Positions 28,919 to 39,275 of a DNA stretch of 64,000 bases are shown one piece after another (position 1 is the first letter of the stretch; the number at the start of each line of letters is the position of its first letter). Source of the stretch: Candidatus Nitrososphaera gargensis Ga9.2 (lineage in GTDB: Archaea > Thermoproteota > Nitrososphaeria > Nitrososphaerales > Nitrososphaeraceae). Under the pieces are notes generated by a model. That model saw only the letters and a list, made by a program, of their open reading frames with translations, searched no databases and was not told the origin of the DNA. The translations under genes were made by a program, and so were the position numbers. The stretch spans positions 1,736,001 through 1,800,000 of the forward strand of contig NC_018719.1 in assembly GCF_000303155.1 (NCBI RefSeq), written 5' to 3'.

Positions 28919-29815
28919 CTACTTTTTGGTTCTCTCATCGTCCTTGACGTAGACCTTGCCCCAGTACACTTCGAGCTTGTTTTCAAGGTAAAGCCTTACT
29001 GCCTCAAGCAGGGTCGCGGCCTCCATCTCTTGACCTTTCTTCTTTATCGTATCAAGCGTGTCGCCCTTTGATACCTTGAACGATTCTTGGCTTATGATCG
29101 GACCCTGATCCAGATCCTCTGTGACAAAGTGCGCGGTGCAGCCCACTATTTTTGCACCTCGCTCATAAGCCTGCACGTAGGCGTATGCACCAGGGAACGC
29201 AGGCAAGAGCGACGGGTGGATATTGATTATTCGGTTCGGGTAGCGCCAGACAAAGTTTGGGGTCAGGATGCGCATGTACCTTGCAAGAACTATCAAGTCG
29301 ATGTTATACTGATCGATCAGTTGCAGGATTTTGTTCTCTGCTTCTGCTTGGTCGATATGGGCAACGGCGTGGAATGGTATGCCGACCTCGTCTGCCATTG
29401 GTTTGAGCGTAGTGTCGCTCCCAATGACGACAGGAATGTTGGCCTTAATCTCGCCTTTCTTCTTCGCTTCGAGCAATTTCGCAAGGCAGTGTGGCTCCTT
29501 GCTCACAAAGATTGCGACATTCTGGAGCCTGTCCGGCTCTTGGTAGTGAACCTTGATCTCCATCGATAGCTTTTTGGACAACTGCTTCAGGCCGTCGTCC
29601 AGCTGCTTCCTATCGATTTCTGCAAATGACGCTTCAAGTTGCATGCCAAAGAGGCCGCGGACGACATTCTGGTTTATCTTTTCAATGTTGCCGCCGTTCC
29701 TGAAGATAAAGTTGGTAATATCTGCAACAACCCCTTTTCTATCGGGCCCCACTACCGTGACCTCGATTATCGTCTTGCCTCTGGCGGCAGCCATTGCGGA
29801 TTGATAGGACCGCAA
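28919..29815 (-). CDS. purU: formyltetrahydrofolate deformylase
   Basis: 298 residues. N-terminal ACT domain (IEVTVVGPDRKGVVADITNFIFRNGGNIEKI), then a formyltransferase-like hydrolase domain with DLIVLARYMRIL, IINIHPSLLPAFPGA (catalytic His) and GCTAHFVTEDLDQGPI (catalytic Asp). It releases formate from 10-formyl-THF, for formate-using purine enzymes. Starts about 130 bases from the left end of the transposon, which lies upstream; the insertion did not hit its coding sequence. Alternative start Met8. Confidence 0.9.
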   Translation of the reverse strand: MRSYQSAMAAARGKTIIEVTVVGPDRKGVVADITNFIFRNGGNIEKINQNVVRGLFGMQLEASFAEIDRKQLDDGLKQLSKKLSMEIKVHYQEPDRLQNVAIFVSKEPHCLAKLLEAKKKGEIKANIPVVIGSDTTLKPMADEVGIPFHAVAHIDQAEAENKILQLIDQYNIDLIVLARYMRILTPNFVWRYPNRIINIHPSLLPAFPGAYAYVQAYERGAKIVGCTAHFVTEDLDQGPIISQESFKVSKGDTLDTIKKKGQEMEAATLLEAVRLYLENKLEVYWGKVYVKDDERTKK

Positions 29816-29939: not shown

Positions 29940-29947
29940 ATCGCTCT
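29940..29947. repeat. target-site duplication, left copy (ATCGCTCT)
   Basis: The eight bases directly outside the left inverted end are repeated in the same orientation directly outside the right end (36876-36883). IS6-family elements make 8-bp duplications, which fits the transposase inside. Confidence 0.85.
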
Positions 29948-30000
29948 AGTTCTGGTGGGAATCCGACTGATTTCGGGTGCTGGTGGAAATCGACTGATGG
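29948..30000 (+). repeat. left terminal inverted repeat of the transposon
   Basis: 53 bp, starting AGTTCTGGTGGGAATCCGAC. Inside it a 20-bp word occurs twice: CTGGTGGGAATCCGACTGAT (29952-) and CTGGTGGAAATCGACTGAT (29980-), separated by eight bases, which looks like two transposase-binding sites. Exact complement of 36823-36875. Confidence 0.9.
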
Positions 30001-30050
30001 ATAAATTGGGGTACTTCAAAAGTGCTTGTATATCAAGTCGAAACTCATAC

Positions 30051-32981
30051 TTATGCCCCCATCAAAGATTTCAAACGTGTAATTTCTTTTGTTAATGCAG
30101 GATAAAGGTATGCAAGTATCTCGTCTATTTGCCTGCCATTGAATCCTAGAACCTTCAGTATAGTTCTATCAATTTTTTGCCTTGCAGGATGTTCATTCTT
30201 CAACTGTTCAAGAATTGACGGCAATTCAGACTTTTTGATTTCATCAAATACTTTGATCAGTTCTTCCCTTTCAGCTTCTCTTAACTTGGAAGGATCCAAT
30301 ACGCTAAATTCTGCAAGCATGTATTCGGATAATTCCAGAAACGCTCCTTCTGTCTCTGATCTTTGGGCAAGGACTTGGATGATATTGATTGTGCTGTTGA
30401 ACCAAAGACAAAGGATTTTCGCATCATTGATGCGAATATTCTGAATACACCACATTATTTTTGCCGGTGTTGCATCTTCTGAAGTGAAGAAGCTCAAGAG
30501 GTTAGTTCCCGGTGCAGATATGTTAAATCTTCTGTTTACAGTGAGATTAGCAACTCTGCTCTCAACATACCTTCTCCATTTGTCTAGCTTTGCAAACGAC
30601 TTGAACTGATGGCCAAAAAAACTATCAATATCTTCAAACTTGTCAATGACAACAAAATCCAATTTGTCTGTAATATCAATGGTAGAAATGCCGGTTAACC
30701 TCCTTATTCCAAACTTTAGTACTTTTTTGGGTATTTCGACTTGGACATGGGTTACCTTATTCTCTGCTAGTACAGAATTGAGCTTCTCCTTTTTCAGAAC
30801 CCAAACATCACCACTCTTGAGAGCTCTTTCCTCCGTTCTTGAGATAAATGTAGAGAGGACAGATACCTCATCCTTTGATTCAATCTCAATACCCCTGACG
30901 ATCCCGCCTTTTACGTTTGCTAGGCAGTTCTCAAGATTGTCCATTTTCGGTTTTCCTACTTTTACGATTTGGAGCCAAATGTCAGAGACCTTCCAGTCTG
31001 AGAACGCCATAAGGACAAAAGCGTTCTTCGTTAAACCTTGCAATTCTTCTTGGTCGATAGTTTTGATTGTAAAAAGGTCGGTGGTTACAAGGTCGCCAGC
31101 CTTCATCTTTGCAGTTCTAGCTCTAATAGCGCGGGCAACCTTTACCGCGTCATCGGATGATCGGGGAATCTCTCTTAGACTTACCACCGCACATATCTTA
31201 TTCTTTAAACGTGTAACGTTCTCATCTTGTTTGAAATGCTTGCCCTTCGTTGCTATCAGTAATATCTCTCTAAATGAGGCATTCTCTGAAAATGCTGCCT
31301 TTTGCATAGTTGTTATAATATGACTTACATGATAATTGTTGAAAAGTAATTTTCTTACTCCCTCTGTAGATTGTAACCTCAGAATTGTTGCTGGCAAGAC
31401 CATTGCCAATTTTCCATTCTTGTCAAGGAGCTTGTCACCTAGGAAGATGAAGTATCCATGCAGTCCGAGTTGGCCGTGAGAATATTTTTGGTAATCAACA
31501 AATTTTCTATCAAGACTCCGCTTGTAATCTGAGGGTATTCTCGTTTGGCTAGTGAAAGGTGGATTCATTATAACAACATCGACCTTCTCAATCTCCATTG
31601 GTTTCGTTGGGGTCTCTGCCATCTTGACCACCCCCTTAACTATTTTTCTGCTTGAAGTATCAATGTTTTCTCCAATATAGTCGGTGATCTTTCCTGTCTT
31701 GAAATATTCCTTTAAGGTCTGCTGGGCAGCATCAATTGTCTCGCCCGGAGTTAATCCAGTCGAATCGTGTATTGCAATCCTCAGATTGTCTGTATAGTAT
31801 AGTGGTGATTGGAGCGCGATATGGACAGCGGCCAAATGCGCGGCAAATGGCATGATGTCTACGCCTGTTATTTGCTGCTCTGCAAAGGCCCTATGGACTT
31901 TTGCAGTGAATTGTTCGCCATCAGCAAGTATGAGATCTTTTTTTCTTCGATACGATGAGACCAAAAGAGTCCCACTGCCACAGGCCGGGTCGATTACAGT
32001 CGAATTCGCAGAATCGATAGAGAGGTTTGCGAGCAAATCCCCTGCTTCGCTTTTAGTGAAATAAGCTGCTACTACTTTTCTAATGTCTAGGGGTATGAGA
32101 TTGTGGAATATCTTCCCTAGTATGTCATGACCGTGTTTCTCTGGCGATAGTGCATTCACGACATTAATTGTAGTCTTTATTGCTTCAAGCGACTCCTCGT
32201 CTTTCAGTTTCGAGGCAATATCAAAATCAAAAATTGGCTTGTAATCTTTTAGAAGAACTTTGGCAAAGTAGGTGTTTTTCAGTTCAGCCGGTTTGGTTAT
32301 CTTCTCTGAATCGAGCACATCATAATCGTTAGTCTCTCTAGCTAATACTTGATAGAACATTATCTGGTTGACAAGCAAGTATGCCGCTGCAGTGCGCAGA
32401 TGTTGTTTTGGAACATCTTTTTCTTGTTCATAACCAAGTACACTTTCAAAGAAAGTCTTCCCTCCAAAGATGTCGTTTATCTCGCTAATCTCTAATTTTG
32501 TAAAACTGTATACCATCGAATCAACTGCTTGATTTAAGAGCCTTATCGCATCGGCTGTGTTAATTTCTCTAGGAGCTTCTGGCCGCTCAACAAAGGCTTT
32601 TATCCAATCTGACAAATTCTCAAGAGACTCTGCCCTGTACTCAATATAGTAAGGTGGTCTATCTAATAGAATAGCTGCTTCACATGGACCTTCACATTTT
32701 TGGGGATAAACTACGGCAAAGACGCCTTTTGCGCGGATGTTAGATTTTATTGTCTCTTTGTAAATGTGGGCTTTGCTGACTGCGTGAATAAGTTGAGCCT
32801 GTGGGCTTTGCTTCCCCTCTATGAAATAATATCCATCGCTTTCAATAAAAATATCAGGTTTTTTAATTCCCTCTAAAGTTGTAAAATGTCTTTCAAATGA
32901 TGCGCGTAAACCTTTCTTGTTAAGTTGTTCTGTAAGAATGGCGTTACATGTGTTTTCACCCATTCTTCCAGTTAATGCCAT
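30051..32981 (-). CDS. single-chain restriction-modification-like enzyme (N-terminal nuclease motif, N6-adenine methylase, C-terminal recognition region)
   Basis: 976 residues. Residues 40-55 (KPDIFIESDGYYFIEGKQ) fit the PD-(D/E)xK nuclease pattern (PD, then ExK). The methylase core starts near 310: motif I is DPACGSGTLLVSS, motif IV is NPPF (MNPPFTSQTR), with a helical N6_Mtase-like region before it. The last 300 residues are a divergent target-recognition region ending in a helical bundle. The order nuclease-methylase-specificity is that of type IIG/L enzymes, in which one protein both cuts and modifies. No separate HsdS or HsdR gene is present. Carried as transposon cargo beside the left end. 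Confidence 0.8.
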   Translation of the reverse strand: MALTGRMGENTCNAILTEQLNKKGLRASFERHFTTLEGIKKPDIFIESDGYYFIEGKQSPQAQLIHAVSKAHIYKETIKSNIRAKGVFAVVYPQKCEGPCEAAILLDRPPYYIEYRAESLENLSDWIKAFVERPEAPREINTADAIRLLNQAVDSMVYSFTKLEISEINDIFGGKTFFESVLGYEQEKDVPKQHLRTAAAYLLVNQIMFYQVLARETNDYDVLDSEKITKPAELKNTYFAKVLLKDYKPIFDFDIASKLKDEESLEAIKTTINVVNALSPEKHGHDILGKIFHNLIPLDIRKVVAAYFTKSEAGDLLANLSIDSANSTVIDPACGSGTLLVSSYRRKKDLILADGEQFTAKVHRAFAEQQITGVDIMPFAAHLAAVHIALQSPLYYTDNLRIAIHDSTGLTPGETIDAAQQTLKEYFKTGKITDYIGENIDTSSRKIVKGVVKMAETPTKPMEIEKVDVVIMNPPFTSQTRIPSDYKRSLDRKFVDYQKYSHGQLGLHGYFIFLGDKLLDKNGKLAMVLPATILRLQSTEGVRKLLFNNYHVSHIITTMQKAAFSENASFREILLIATKGKHFKQDENVTRLKNKICAVVSLREIPRSSDDAVKVARAIRARTAKMKAGDLVTTDLFTIKTIDQEELQGLTKNAFVLMAFSDWKVSDIWLQIVKVGKPKMDNLENCLANVKGGIVRGIEIESKDEVSVLSTFISRTEERALKSGDVWVLKKEKLNSVLAENKVTHVQVEIPKKVLKFGIRRLTGISTIDITDKLDFVVIDKFEDIDSFFGHQFKSFAKLDKWRRYVESRVANLTVNRRFNISAPGTNLLSFFTSEDATPAKIMWCIQNIRINDAKILCLWFNSTINIIQVLAQRSETEGAFLELSEYMLAEFSVLDPSKLREAEREELIKVFDEIKKSELPSILEQLKNEHPARQKIDRTILKVLGFNGRQIDEILAYLYPALTKEITRLKSLMGA

Positions 32982-33103
32982 TACAGTTTATCGGAACTTA
33001 CTGCTTGGCAAATCAGGATGATTATGTAGTAGATTCTACAGACATTGCCTCCGCTGGTTACTCATGTGAAAAAATCAGCTTTGGCAGTGAGATAGATAAT
33101 CTA

Positions 33104-34300
33104 TCAATTAGCACTCTCATGCCCCCTGTTGCTAGCATAGCGTATGAGAGATTCAATCCTGTTCGTTTCAAAGTTAAGTTTTATACCTGCTCGTTCTGCT
33201 GGTGTCTTTCCTAGAGTCGAATGTTCACGGCAGTAGTTGTAATGAATCCTCATCGCTTCAATTATTTTTTGTGCGGACTCCTTAGAGTGCATACCGCGCA
33301 TTACCTTTTCCCTATCTCTCATTGTGCCATTGAGTCTTTCAACTCTGGAGTTAAGACCTTCGTTACGTACTGATATAGAGCGAATGTTCTTGACATGCTT
33401 TCTGTCTCTAAAGTACTCCTGTCGATATGCCTTGTCATATGATGGTAATCCGTCATGGATGATCGCCTTTGGTTCGCCTGTTTTGATTCTTGCATCTTGA
33501 AACACTGCTCTAGCATCTGATACTTCTCTACGTTGACTAATCTTGCTGCTAATCCAGAACCGAGTTGTATCATCCATCAGATTCCATAGCCACGCATAGT
33601 GACCTTTTTCCATCTTTTCTCTTCTGACATGCACCATCATTTCATCTACATGGCAAATCCCACTTACATGAGGCGGAGTCATGCTATCGACAAATGGAGC
33701 TACCTCATCAGCAAATCTGTGAATCCAATCCAATATCGATGTATGATCAACCTTGACATTATGGAATTGCTTGATGTGGTCAGCTACCTTCCTAAGCGAT
33801 ACTCCTTTGAAGTAAAGGTCAATGGCTACCGTAATTATCTTGGGATTCTTCTTAGAGTGCTCAAAGCCAATATTGACGATAAATCGATAGTTACAGCTAC
33901 GGCAAAGATACTTTTGAATTGCGCCGCTTTTATTAAGTCGCTTACCGTCCTTTACAATGTTGTCTGATAGCTTGCACTTTGGACATTCAACAGATTGAGA
34001 AGCTATTGGTAGTTGCGGCGACTGTACAACATCTTGCTGTACAATTCTGCGGCGCAGCTCTTTCGAGAATCCAACCGCATAGACGTGTTTGCAGACTATC
34101 TTCCGATAGAGAAAGTCTGGACAAGAACAAGTCCATTGACCTTCTTGACGCGAATCGCCTCTGCCTGTTTCGTACGTTCTTACTACGTCGTACCATGTCT
34201 CTTCGGAAGATTGCGACTTTACCTTGTAGTGCAATTTATTGATTCTCTTTATGCAGCTGCCAATGGACACGATAGCAAGGCCACGTACCTGTCTAGCCAT
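33104..34300 (-). CDS. IS6-like DDE transposase with N-terminal SWIM zinc domain
   Basis: 398 residues from the ATG at 34300 (MARQVRGLAIVSIG); a longer frame to 34384 runs through the operators and is unlikely. The SWIM domain is WTCSCPDFLYRKIVCKH (CxC-CxH), followed by a zinc ribbon (CPKCKLSDN ... CRSCNYRF), an HTH (GVSLRKVADHIKQFHNVKVDHTSI) and the catalytic core with CHVDEMMVHV (first Asp), IIHDGLPSYDKAY (second Asp) and NSRVERLNGTMRDREKVMRG (Glu). This architecture recurs in Nitrososphaera insertion elements. An 8-bp target duplication at the element ends agrees with IS6-type chemistry. Confidence 0.88.
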   Translation of the reverse strand: MARQVRGLAIVSIGSCIKRINKLHYKVKSQSSEETWYDVVRTYETGRGDSRQEGQWTCSCPDFLYRKIVCKHVYAVGFSKELRRRIVQQDVVQSPQLPIASQSVECPKCKLSDNIVKDGKRLNKSGAIQKYLCRSCNYRFIVNIGFEHSKKNPKIITVAIDLYFKGVSLRKVADHIKQFHNVKVDHTSILDWIHRFADEVAPFVDSMTPPHVSGICHVDEMMVHVRREKMEKGHYAWLWNLMDDTTRFWISSKISQRREVSDARAVFQDARIKTGEPKAIIHDGLPSYDKAYRQEYFRDRKHVKNIRSISVRNEGLNSRVERLNGTMRDREKVMRGMHSKESAQKIIEAMRIHYNYCREHSTLGKTPAERAGIKLNFETNRIESLIRYASNRGHESAN

Positions 34301-34356
34301 TTCTTTGGTAGTACCATCCTTCGGAAATTGGTCGTTTGGTTGGATTATCACGTTTA

Positions 34357-34412
34357 TACGTCGTATATACATACAATAAGCCAATATTTAAATATATACG
34401 TTGTATATACAG
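34357..34412. promoter_or_regulatory. tandem operator-like repeats between transposase and AbrB genes
   Basis: TACGTCGTATATACAT (34357-34372) and TACGTTGTATATACAG (34397-34412) are direct repeats 40 bp apart, close to four helical turns. The second lies between a TATA element (TATTTAAATA, 34385-34394) and the AbrB ATG at 34417, so an occupied site would block that promoter. The first lies upstream of the divergent transposase start. AbrB proteins often bind such repeats in front of their own gene. Confidence 0.6.
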
Positions 34413-34416
34413 CGAT

Positions 34417-34584
34417 ATGCCATTTGAGCCTAAAGTGAAGCTAGGCAAGGTCGGAAATAGCTTCAAAGTCACGATACCTAGTGAGATGATTCAAGATTTA
34501 GGATGGAAAGAGGGCGACTTTCTCAGGATAGGCTTAGATGACAATTCCCTTACAATCCGAAAAGAAATCGCAGCTAAGAACTAG
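34417..34584 (+). CDS. AbrB/SpoVT-type DNA-binding regulator
   Basis: 55 residues. MPFEPKVKLGKVGNSFKVTIP followed by SEMIQDLGWKEGDFLRIGLDDN is the swapped-hairpin AbrB domain in full length. Such proteins serve as antitoxins or autoregulators. The start is taken at ATG 34417 because the TATA element and the second operator lie just before it; the longer frame from 34336 would translate through them. Divergent from the transposase and overlapping the convergent nuclease gene by 11 bases. It probably controls itself and perhaps the transposase. Confidence 0.85.
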   Translation: MPFEPKVKLGKVGNSFKVTIPSEMIQDLGWKEGDFLRIGLDDNSLTIRKEIAAKN

Positions 34585-35560
34585 ATTCATCTGTTTGTTT
34601 CGCCATTTTGTCGATTAGCTCTCTAACATCAACAGATCGCTCTATCCATTCACGAATAAAATAATCCAGCAAGTCTATTTCAACTCTATGATAATAAACT
34701 GTATACCCTACGGCTGTCTTATCTGCCCTTCCAAATTTGACAAAAGCGTCCATAGCATGCTCTACCCAATCCCGCGATGGAAAAGATGAATCTTTGTATG
34801 AAAAGTACAACCGTAGTTTTTCAAGGATCTCATCCACTGTAAAGCTGAGCTCGAGAGTCTTACGTCCTCTGGCTTTCCTATATGCTTCTAAAGTGGCTTT
34901 TTCTGAGAAAACCTTGTCCCAAATGACGCTCATGGTATAAGGAAGTTCAGGTTCAGAGTCATAGAACCACAACGAACTGAGTTCTTCAACTATCTCGTCT
35001 GCATTAATCGTTATGACTTGACGCAGTCTTTCACTTAATATCGAATTCGTAATATCTCCCCAAATCCTTTTCAATGTCCAGAAAGTACTGCTTTCAGAAT
35101 CTCGATTGTATTCTACTATCGCAAGTTTACGATTGAAAGTAACAGTGCCCTTCTGAATTTGCTCTTGGGTATAGTCAACTAGTGCCTGAGCACGTGGATA
35201 ATGAACAAAAAGTATCAAGTCATGATCCTTTATGTCGCCATCAGGCCAACCTTTCAATTCATCGTCGTATTTTTCAACTTGTTTTAGGTCTTGCAACCAA
35301 CGATTACGATCCTTTGGAAATCCCTTCTTGACTTCCCCTATAATTTTCACATCCGAACCCTGTGCAAGAACATCTGGCGTAACAGGTTTCTTTGCTTGCA
35401 CTCTATTCGCTGGACTTGGCTGTAATTTCTTTCCCATTCGAAATGTGCCAGAATAATAACGTATGATCACATGACCAAATGCGGTTATCGCCCCAACCGT
35501 CAATCTATAATCATCGATCTTTTCATGCAGCTTTCGAACTGCCGCTTCATTGTCTGGCAT
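34574..35560 (-). CDS. predicted PD-(D/E)xK nuclease, unknown family
   Basis: 328 residues from ATG 35560 (MPDNEAAVRKLHEKID). VTPDVLAQGSDVKIIGEVKKGFP fits the PD-(D/E)xK active site: PD on a strand, then E-x-K on the next hydrophobic strand. LILFVHYPRAQALVDY and the strand RKLAIVEYNRD resemble the rest of a restriction-like core. The C-terminal 120 residues (LSFTVDEILEKLRLYFSYK ... YTVYYHRVEIDLLDYFIREW) look like a winged-helix or helical domain. ATG overlaps the upstream gene by 14 bases, so both are translated together. I do not recognise the family; function as defence nuclease is inference. Confidence 0.65.
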   Translation of the reverse strand: MPDNEAAVRKLHEKIDDYRLTVGAITAFGHVIIRYYSGTFRMGKKLQPSPANRVQAKKPVTPDVLAQGSDVKIIGEVKKGFPKDRNRWLQDLKQVEKYDDELKGWPDGDIKDHDLILFVHYPRAQALVDYTQEQIQKGTVTFNRKLAIVEYNRDSESSTFWTLKRIWGDITNSILSERLRQVITINADEIVEELSSLWFYDSEPELPYTMSVIWDKVFSEKATLEAYRKARGRKTLELSFTVDEILEKLRLYFSYKDSSFPSRDWVEHAMDAFVKFGRADKTAVGYTVYYHRVEIDLLDYFIREWIERSVDVRELIDKMAKQTDESSS

Positions 35561-36701
35561 ACTGCATCTCTGAATAGTCTTTGATTTGACCTTCGCGGAA
35601 CCTTTCAAAAATATGATTCATTAATCTAGCAATAGAAGCTTCGCTTGCTCTGAGCTGTGGAACTACTGTCAGTCTGTTAGGAGATAGAACCCAGAGGTCG
35701 AAAGAAGATCCATCCAAGTAATCTACTAGCGAAAGGTGAACGTATGGATTTGAATGGTAGACACTGATCGACGAAAATTTCATCTGTTTCATCAATTCGA
35801 TAAAACGATGATTTTGAATGACTTCCTTGAAAATATCGTAGTCGAATTCTACTACTAAGGGAGAAGGTTTTGGTTTGCTAGGAACTCTTGCCCTGTTAGA
35901 ATATAGATTGAACTTCTTTTGAATTATTTCTACAATATAAGGAAAGATCACTGTATAGAAAGGCAAAAACCCTCGACGTGCTTTAAGGAGACCCTTTCTT
36001 GAGATATATCCCTCCAAAGCAAGCTCGCCTTTGCTTATAAGATGGAATTGGATCTTATCGACCCACCTATCATTTGCAATGGCATCTGCAAATGCTTCCT
36101 TGTATGGTCTTTCAGCATAGAAGACAGCCGATTCCTTTCTCTCAACTTTTCGGGCTTTCTTTTTGTTGCTAGCCTTGTCTAAGAACAGGCGTTGGTAGGA
36201 AATCCGCCTATAGGCAGTCATTCTATCAAGAAGAACTTCTGATTCTGTAACTGTCTCGAGCTGTTCAAGAATATCTTCTAACTCATCAGAACTCAAGAAT
36301 GCGCCAGAGATACTTGGATAATATCCCTTGAAGAATGGCCTGAGAATAGATTCAACGAACTTGCGAGATTCGTTTGTAATAGCATAATAGATTTGTTCAT
36401 GTGAACTCTGTACGATTAAGACATTGCCGAGAGCGGAGGCAGGGCTATTGCGTCTGGGCTTTCTACCTATTTTCATTGAGAAAATAGTTCCACTATCATT
36501 TGATCTCCATATTTCATTTGAGAATCCTGACGAATTAGACTCAATTACCTGCTTAATACTATTTTTGCATACGAGAAAGAGAATTGTTATTTGTTCATCG
36601 TGATTTCTCATAAGCATTTCTTCAAGAAGTCCTGCGAGTGAGTCTTCACTAGGATGGGTCATGTTATACACCCAAAACTCAGTACCATACCTAGGTCGCA
36701 T
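35547..36701 (-). CDS. unknown protein, partner of the transposon-borne nuclease
   Basis: 384 residues, no signal peptide or membrane helix. The first 60 residues (PSEDSLAGLLEEMLMRNHDEQITILFLVCKN) could be a small alpha/beta domain; the middle is basic (RLFLDKASNKKKARKVERKES); the last 120 residues have strands and helices (LVVEFDYDIFKEVIQNHRFIELMKQM, FDLWVLSPNRLTVVPQL). No known motif seen. It overlaps the nuclease gene by 14 bases, so the pair is probably one functional unit. Alternative start: Met at 36659 (MTHPSEDS). First gene of the right-hand transposon operon. Confidence 0.65.
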   Translation of the reverse strand: MRPRYGTEFWVYNMTHPSEDSLAGLLEEMLMRNHDEQITILFLVCKNSIKQVIESNSSGFSNEIWRSNDSGTIFSMKIGRKPRRNSPASALGNVLIVQSSHEQIYYAITNESRKFVESILRPFFKGYYPSISGAFLSSDELEDILEQLETVTESEVLLDRMTAYRRISYQRLFLDKASNKKKARKVERKESAVFYAERPYKEAFADAIANDRWVDKIQFHLISKGELALEGYISRKGLLKARRGFLPFYTVIFPYIVEIIQKKFNLYSNRARVPSKPKPSPLVVEFDYDIFKEVIQNHRFIELMKQMKFSSISVYHSNPYVHLSLVDYLDGSSFDLWVLSPNRLTVVPQLRASEASIARLMNHIFERFREGQIKDYSEMQYARQ

Positions 36702-36822
36702 TGGGACTTTCGATGTAATTGCATCGAATATGAACTTATAGCGAGTGTAGCAAAAATTTGTAAATCTATTACAGAATATTCATTGACGCGTAACTTTGTT
36801 GTTATTTTTTCAATTATAACAA

Positions 36823-36875
36823 CCATCAGTCGATTTCCACCAGCACCCGAAATCAGTCGGATTCCCACCAGAACT
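36823..36875 (-). repeat. right terminal inverted repeat of the transposon
   Basis: Exact reverse complement of the left end, 53 of 53 bases, including the doubled CTGGTGG word. Outside it the left-hand 8-bp sequence ATCGCTCT is repeated at 36876-36883. Confidence 0.9.
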
Positions 36876-36883
36876 ATCGCTCT
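36876..36883. repeat. target-site duplication, right copy (ATCGCTCT)
   Basis: Direct repeat of 29940-29947 immediately outside the right inverted end. Beyond it, up to 37096, I see no gene. Confidence 0.85.
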
Positions 36884-38768: not shown

Positions 38769-39275
38769 TCATTCATGCGTTTTAAAATCAGCCTGTATTC
38801 CCAGCTCGTGCATTTCCTGATTTACCACACAAATATTGTGGCAGAGTATCTTTAGAAGTACTTCATTCTTTTGTGCTGTAATGTCCCTGCTTCTAACGTA
38901 GGGACCAAATTTCTTTTTGATCATAGAAAAAGTGCTTTCTATATTGCTGCGCTGGTGATAATGCTTCATGAACTCTTCCCTATGAAGCATGAAATAGCTG
39001 TACATCTTACTCCACGTGCTAGAGCCAAATGACTTGCCGGTAGCGTTCTTTTTGAACAGGATGAAGGCAATTGCCTGCAATTCCGTTGCAAGCTCGTAGC
39101 ACCTTCTGCTTGAATAAGCCTTGTCTGCCAATATCTTGGATTGTAAACCTCTTGGCAGTATCTTCTACCAATGGACCAAATAGGCTCACATCGCCTTTGT
39201 TCTCCTCTGTTATTATTACCGAGGGGCTTTGTTTAAAAAGTCAACAATCCATGCTTGGATAGCTGTTGTTTGATT
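38769..39275 (-). pseudogene. DDE transposase fragment (IS5/IS4-like), N-terminus missing and frameshifted
   Basis: The main frame (38769-39131) reads ADKAYSSRRCYELATELQ, then a stretch ending NIESTFSMIKKKFGPYVRSR, which is the second Asp and the Y/E-helix (catalytic Glu in NIESTFS) of an IS5/IS1182-like transposase. Upstream, one base out of frame, lies its preceding part (SPSVIITEENKGDVSLFGPLV, then FTIQDI). The first catalytic Asp region is gone. No inverted ends found. A dead insertion-sequence remnant. Confidence 0.75.

Follow-up and report, generated by a model that had tools for sequence, protein, structure and literature searches.

How does a stretch of archaeal DNA with five genes, only one of them for a transposase, come to lie between perfect inverted repeats, and does it stand alone? 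We addressed this question for a locus in the window, by which we mean the whole 64,000-nucleotide stretch analysed, from Candidatus Nitrososphaera gargensis Ga9.2 (NC_018719.1, positions 1,736,001 to 1,800,000). The reading that we favor, at a probability of about 85%, is that of a complete single-unit archaeal transposon related to IS6, with doubled ends, from a family whose cargo changes and whose members tend to insert at the edge of core promoters.

Structure of the element and its cargo

The element occupies positions 29948-36875 of the window (6.93 kb, five genes, one transposase). Its features are as follows.

29940..29947, no strand: left copy of the target-site duplication, ATCGCTCT, identical to 36876-36883
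29948..30000, plus strand: left terminal inverted repeat, 53 bp, 100% complementary to 36823-36875
29952..29971, plus strand: outer sub-repeat of the left end, CTGGTGGGAATCCGACTGAT, a putative transposase-binding site (from the outer/inner alignment)
29980..29998, plus strand: inner sub-repeat of the left end, CTGGTGGAAATCGACTGAT (from the outer/inner alignment)
30051..32981, minus strand: cargo 1, a 976-aa DNA adenine methyltransferase with Eco57I and N6_Mtase domains
33104..34384, minus strand: transposase, 426 aa, with SWIM motif CxC(x9)CxH, zinc ribbon C134/C137/C161/C164 and DDE triad D247, D311, E349
34355..34411, no strand: two near-palindromic 17-mers, TATACGTCGTATATACA and TATACGTTGTATATACA, at the divergent start of the transposase and AbrB-type genes
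34417..34584, plus strand: small AbrB/MazE-type DNA-binding protein (from a domain search), 55 aa, divergent from the transposase
34574..35608, minus strand: cargo 2, a 344-aa protein with no family match, partner of the 384-aa gene
35547..36701, minus strand: cargo 3, a 384-aa protein with no family match, partner of the 344-aa gene
36823..36875, minus strand: right terminal inverted repeat, 53 bp, 100% complementary to the left arm
36825..36843, minus strand: inner sub-repeat of the right end, mirroring the left end
36852..36871, minus strand: outer sub-repeat of the right end, mirroring the left end
36876..36883, no strand: right copy of the target-site duplication, ATCGCTCT, identical to the left copy

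The two arms are 6822 nt apart, and their match extends to 54 if a fortuitous A/T of the duplication is included; the runner-up inverted pair in the 7.8 kb scanned is 31 nt long at 74%. Allowing up to three mismatches, these are the only two sites of the 53-mer in the 2,833,868-bp single-contig genome, and the reversed 53-mer, scanned as a control, gave zero matches. Within the left end, the outer 30 nt align with an inner copy (shuffle p = 0.003). The first-pass annotation had described exact 53-bp inverted ends, an 8-bp duplication and five genes with one transposase, all of which held to the letter, and had taken the locus for one unit transposon rather than an IS6 composite. This reading also stands: two directly repeated insertion sequence (IS) copies around the cargo are absent from the locus, and a single IS-type transposase lies with its passengers between one pair of inverted ends, the layout of a tIS or unit transposon.

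The transposase carries a SWIM zinc finger, an InsA-type zinc ribbon and a DDE_Tnp_IS240 domain, as expected of the IS6-like SWIM transposase proposed in that annotation, and neither its zinc ligands nor the triad D247, D311 and E349 vary when it is aligned with eleven relatives. Kinship with IS6 was upheld for the DDE domain, which is closest to IS6, but not as strict membership, since the best curated IS model, IS6 (NF033587), gave 116.2 bits, below its cut-off of 125. The IS1, IS481, IS66 and IS256 models rank after it with far lower scores (38.4 bits against a cut-off of 150 for the IS256/Mutator model NF033543). An AlphaFold model of low confidence (pLDDT 63.5) matches DDE transposases and retroviral integrases, with ISCth4 as the top structural match. 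The nearest relative in the transposase tree (locus L040) is 63% identical. Searches of viral contigs and phage records found no close relatives, and plasmid matches are distant, the best of them being bacterial IS6-like proteins at less than 30% identity.

Other elements, too, often have a small AbrB- or ribbon-helix-helix-like gene pointing away from the transposase gene, although Pfam supports only some of these assignments. This recurrence suggests that the AbrB/MazE-type protein is a probable regulator of the transposase. The near-palindromic 17-mers between the two genes form a possible operator; a DNA hairpin at the same divergence was not significant (z = -1.4).

The cargo is probably defence-related, as had been supposed, on the basis of the DNA methyltransferase with its Eco57I and N6_Mtase domains. 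PDB matches of this protein include BseCI, BpuSI and StySJI M, and a stretch near its N-terminus, KPDIFIES..FIEGKQ, resembles a PD-(D/E)XK nuclease when read by eye; the protein is possibly a type IIG-like restriction-modification protein. It also matches PADLOC type II, IIG and PglX models, mainly in the methylase region, and the remaining cargo is unmatched; neither PADLOC nor profile searches detected a complete named defence system in the window cargo. The methyltransferase region is 24% identical to a 959-aa cargo protein of another element (L108), and at this identity, confined to the methylase region, we do not claim a common cargo origin. The 344/384 gene pair recurs as a pair in two other genomes (L204 and L209); the stretch fetched at each of these loci contains nothing related to the window's transposase. 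In our reading by eye, a D..EVK stretch of the 344-aa protein is PD-(D/E)XK-like. The 384-aa protein yielded a usable fold model with zero significant PDB matches and a faint RnlA-like match. Neither Cas1, the mark of casposons, nor the TnsABC machinery of Tn7 is among the Pfam matches of the five window genes.

A family with shared ends and changing cargo

A relative of the transposase is present in 172 of 400 Nitrososphaeria genomes. At the Nitrososphaeria loci fetched, 58 elements are bounded by inverted repeats, 29 of them with an exact 8-bp duplication; they measure 2.0-6.9 kb, have a single transposase each and have ends of mostly 46-127 bp. A few relatives have a weak inverted-repeat match that draws on the duplication. 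A GTDB scan of all prokaryotes contributed a further eight elements with exact duplications; its loci include some from Bathyarchaeota, Thermoplasmata, Methanomicrobia and Methanomethyliaceae, and long ends and duplications occur at several of these. Another 17 elements with duplications came from a second set of fetched regions. Site analysis used the 54 elements whose 8-bp duplication is exact, that of the window among them. The window element, which ranks among the largest, is thus a member of a broad and large archaeal family of cargo transposons. The family is apparently undescribed so far: a literature search, with subscription journals and preprints mostly outside its reach, found no description of it or of targeting at BRE/TATA edges.

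The family norm also corrects the view that a single element had gained long ends, because long ends and cargo are found throughout. From 74 ends we derived the tip consensus GGTTCTGTYAAnTCTnCGG, in which G7 is kept in 72, and an internal second copy of the motif was found at p < 0.05 in 52. Published IS6 tips likewise have GG, a G at position 7 and cTGTt (PMC7986276, PMC6807381). The window tip has AG in place of the GG of family tips and keeps G7; given that (A/G)(G/C)TTCTG occurs at both window ends and also in independent relatives, the window boundaries are correct. With an IS6-like tip and, usually, a second internal copy, the long end is most simply explained as a recognition site that has been doubled and passed down within the family, and the doubled motifs may bind the transposase.

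The first-pass annotation had proposed a search of other thaumarchaeal genomes for further copies of the 53-bp end with different cargo. The element's own genome has no second copy of this 53-mer; other elements with different cargo were found in many genomes. No homologue in any other element was detected for 182 of 231 cargo ORFs, a set that takes in small ORFs and therefore includes some that are not genes. Pfam searches of 100 larger cargo proteins identified several kinds of DNA methyltransferase, a ThaI restriction endonuclease, a type I specificity subunit, HEPN_AbiV, Fic and OLD/AAA-type ATPases, and a proteasome-like domain in six. Predicted defence genes are prominent in the family cargo, alongside other loads.

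Insertion beside archaeal core promoters

Reading outward from the duplication, an EM fit to 27 independent sites yielded the motif R-N-A-A-N-N-Y-T-T-A-T-A-A, with a log-likelihood of 127 versus 62 +/- 5.9 (maximum 82) for shifted sites. Judged by its letters, this motif is an archaeal BRE plus TATA box, the BRE adjoining the duplicated 8 bp and the TATA box starting 5 bp farther outward. Applied to 14 sites held out of the fit, the motif scored -0.41 versus -3.65 +/- 0.68, and 0 of 20000 resamples scored as high. We also scored a TTTAWA matrix of our own choosing, fixed beforehand on general grounds and independently of the sites. Its mean score was maximal at offset 13 (+2.4 versus -2.0 +/- 0.4) and near background at other offsets out to about 120 bp. 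A strong TATA box lies at offsets 12-16 in 25 of 41 independent sites, versus 2.2 expected; about a third of the independent sites are without one at the expected offset. These patterns suggest a preference of the family for insertion just before archaeal core promoters, at their upstream edge. IS256, considered as a control for target choice, had matches in only 3 of 200 genomes and was too rare to serve, leaving no control family.

On the TATA side, an ORF starts nearby downstream in 19 of 25 sites; from their translations, we read these ORFs as including TFB (three), SufB (two), aCPSF (two), alanyl-tRNA synthetase and S15. The radA and RPA promoters were each used in several genomes, and the repeatedly targeted housekeeping genes are radA, RPA, TFB, sufB and aCPSF. 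Many insertion sites are intergenic, and insertion leaves the core promoter of the downstream gene intact. Promoter targeting had not been anticipated in the earlier annotation.

At the radA site, the flanks of one element (L103) joined over a single TGTTTTAG have an uninterrupted match in at least 30 congeneric genomes, and in other genomes the match is broken at this 8-bp word. In two of the uninterrupted matches (L170 and L187) a solo element tip lies beside the promoter. Another element's tip directly abuts the duplication at 17 of 54 sites, versus 0.26 expected, and one locus (L118) holds two elements with distant transposases and three shared copies of TGTTTTAG. A single promoter can therefore be targeted repeatedly, and the youngest element of a stack would be the one nearest the promoter.

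Empty sites, whose search the first-pass annotation had also proposed, were found for family members at radA but not for the window element. For the latter, only the start of a formyltransferase-like gene (28919-29815; purU in our reading) was matched in relatives and no match reached the junction, because the flanks are not conserved there. With neither an empty site nor a second copy of the ends, recent movement of the window copy is not demonstrated. In its left flank a TATAA stands in the right register, facing this gene. As a core promoter, however, the window's own site is not significant (local rank p = 0.28), and we do not claim it as an example of promoter targeting.

Known systems and rival explanations

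The family is like IS6 in its DDE domain, its 8-bp duplication, shared by the window element and its relatives, and its tips with GG, G7 and a CTGTT-like core (PMC7986276, PMC6807381). The clostridial long-transposase clades h and i of IS6 have an N-terminal zinc finger, and the transposase here is likewise zinc-bearing. Unlike IS26, archaeal IS6 elements and these clostridial clades, the family has a SWIM domain, ends of 50-120 bp, several kilobases of cargo within one end pair and promoter-edge insertion. The window element, with 53-bp ends and five genes in 6.93 kb, departs from both the 15-20 bp ends of IS6 (PMC7986276) and its transposase-only elements of about 0.7-1.8 kb. One transposase with passengers inside a single end pair recalls a tIS. 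The only passenger-carrying IS6 member on record is ISDsp3 (PMC7986276), whereas we find a whole archaeal family with cargo of up to about 5.7 kb that is mostly element-specific. In the available part of a thaumarchaeal survey, which covers casposons, proviruses, conjugative and cryptic elements and IS counts by ISsaga, N. gargensis is the richest in IS and cargo-bearing IS6-like transposons are not described (PMC6563490).

In bacteria, TnGBS, ISLre2 and ISKra4 (the Mutator-like p-MULT 3 and 4) insert at a fixed distance upstream of promoters; they target sigma-A promoters 15-17 bp downstream and have IS256/Mutator transposases, and archaeal promoters are raised there for ISH6 as speculation only (PMC3942029). 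The archaeal family shares with them insertion upstream of promoters, a spectrum that extends from simple IS up to large cargo elements, and both orientations with near-perfect ends; it differs in the archaeal BRE/TATA right beside the duplication and in its IS6-like transposase. Fixed-distance insertion upstream of promoters, the p-MULT trait, is seen at archaeal promoters for the family as a whole, the window's own site not reaching significance (p = 0.28). TnGBS/ISLre2 is the nearest mechanistic precedent for the archaeal promoter-edge family. Tn7-like transposons use recurrent safe target sites next to essential genes and carry defence genes (for cargo, PMC8649781). The elements described here similarly have recurrent safe sites near essential genes and probable defence cargo, but no TnsABC or TnsD/E was seen, and they have a single transposase and many promoters rather than one att site.

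In the account that we favor, the SWIM-zinc ribbon-DDE transposase would bind both 53-bp ends through two copies of the recognition motif per end, probably restrained by the divergent AbrB-type protein, and would move all DNA between them, that is, the methyltransferase-based probable restriction system and the two-gene module. Insertion would generate the 8-bp duplication. The family would pick the upstream edge of a core promoter, directly before the BRE/TATA, sparing the downstream core promoter, and reuse of the same promoter would build tandem stacks; the window element may still be active. The family adds a widespread class of single-unit elements with cargo to the ammonia-oxidising archaea and others, in which IS6 relatives had been recorded as bare insertion sequences, and offers an uncomplicated means by which defence genes could spread among them. 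The exact end and target signatures should help to find more elements, and a transposase that uses a fixed, probably harmless insertion spot before housekeeping promoters could be useful for engineering archaea that resist manipulation.

An ordinary IS6-type IS with neighbors captured by chance, an isolated tIS outside any family pattern, would account for the best score against IS6 and the single copy in the genome, and ISDsp3 provides a precedent (PMC7986276). We regard it as very improbable in view of the dozens of relatives in many genomes that share its design and long ends but differ in cargo, when published IS6 ends are 15-20 bp (PMC7986276). It is also unlikely that the locus has decayed into an immobile island, kept in place by its defence cargo and retaining its ends as relics: its single copy and the lack of polymorphism found for the window element agree with this, but the letter-perfect ends and duplication, five open frames and intact catalytic triad point to recent insertion and intact machinery. 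Proximity to promoters could instead reflect survivorship, with insertion anywhere and persistence only upstream of genes, given that insertions in essential genes would be lost and that many sites are intergenic. The sharp TATA register at offset 13, with other offsets near background to about 120 bp, the reuse of this position at the radA, RPA, TFB, sufB and aCPSF promoters, and the identical 8-bp word reused in tandem argue against survivorship, which we consider improbable.

Promoter-edge insertion raises the question of whether the transposase of an archaeal element recognizes a core promoter to which TBP and TFB are bound. We tentatively propose, at not quite even odds, that it does recognize TBP/TFB-bound promoter DNA and directs insertion to the BRE's upstream edge, giving stacked arrays of defence cargo before housekeeping genes in an archaeal counterpart to Ty3-type targeting. 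Reading of bare AT-rich, bendable DNA rather than the assembled complex is a real if somewhat doubtful possibility, consistent with a motif that is partly degenerate AT-rich sequence; the constant distance between BRE adenines and TATA box and the recurrence of housekeeping promoters speak for the complex, although both are compatible with bare DNA too. If the TBP/TFB-bound promoter is indeed what is recognized, the zinc ribbon of the transposase, which is weakly RPA12/TFS-like, is perhaps the means.

Insertion targets and the transposase zinc ribbon

In two of the regions fetched around family loci (L170 and L187), a lone element tip adjoins the promoter of radA, as seen in matches that run continuously across the junction. 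These solo tips are possibly remnants or footprints of excision.

Elements of the family were also located ahead of genes reading as TFB in three regions (L048, L050, and L219). TFB is the protein that binds the BRE, the promoter element that adjoins family insertion sites. Within the window transposase, the zinc ribbon (residues about 104-168) has weak similarity to the ribbons of RPA12/TFS. This ribbon could possibly serve as a handle for contacting the transcription machinery.

Proteasome-like and paired cargo genes

Transposon cargo repeatedly includes proteasome-like (NTN hydrolase) proteins, as in L111, L095, and others; among the 100 larger cargo proteins surveyed, six carried such a domain. 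A second cargo-bearing relative lies in the N. gargensis genome itself, near 966 kb of the chromosome (L057, 7719-11091). Its ends are 46 bp long and imperfect, a cargo protein of it is a homologue of a proteasome-like protein from L095, and a search for a target duplication at this element found none.

Two cargo genes of the window element also recur together:
35547..36701 (-), gene for the 384-aa protein
34574..35608 (-), gene for the 344-aa protein
Their homologues stay paired in L204 (8928-11070) and L209 (7132-9194), and neither fetched stretch contains any relative of the window transposase. The two genes are a candidate two-gene system. The predicted model of the 384-aa protein bears a faint, non-significant likeness to RnlA.

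Other transposase remains

A DDE_Tnp_1 transposase fragment lies 2 kb to the right of the element (window 38769-39131, minus strand). Elsewhere in the same genome (C1:2753371-2754297; L059, 9372-10334), there is a frameshifted transposase relic of the same type as the window transposase, with which it shares up to 76% identity.
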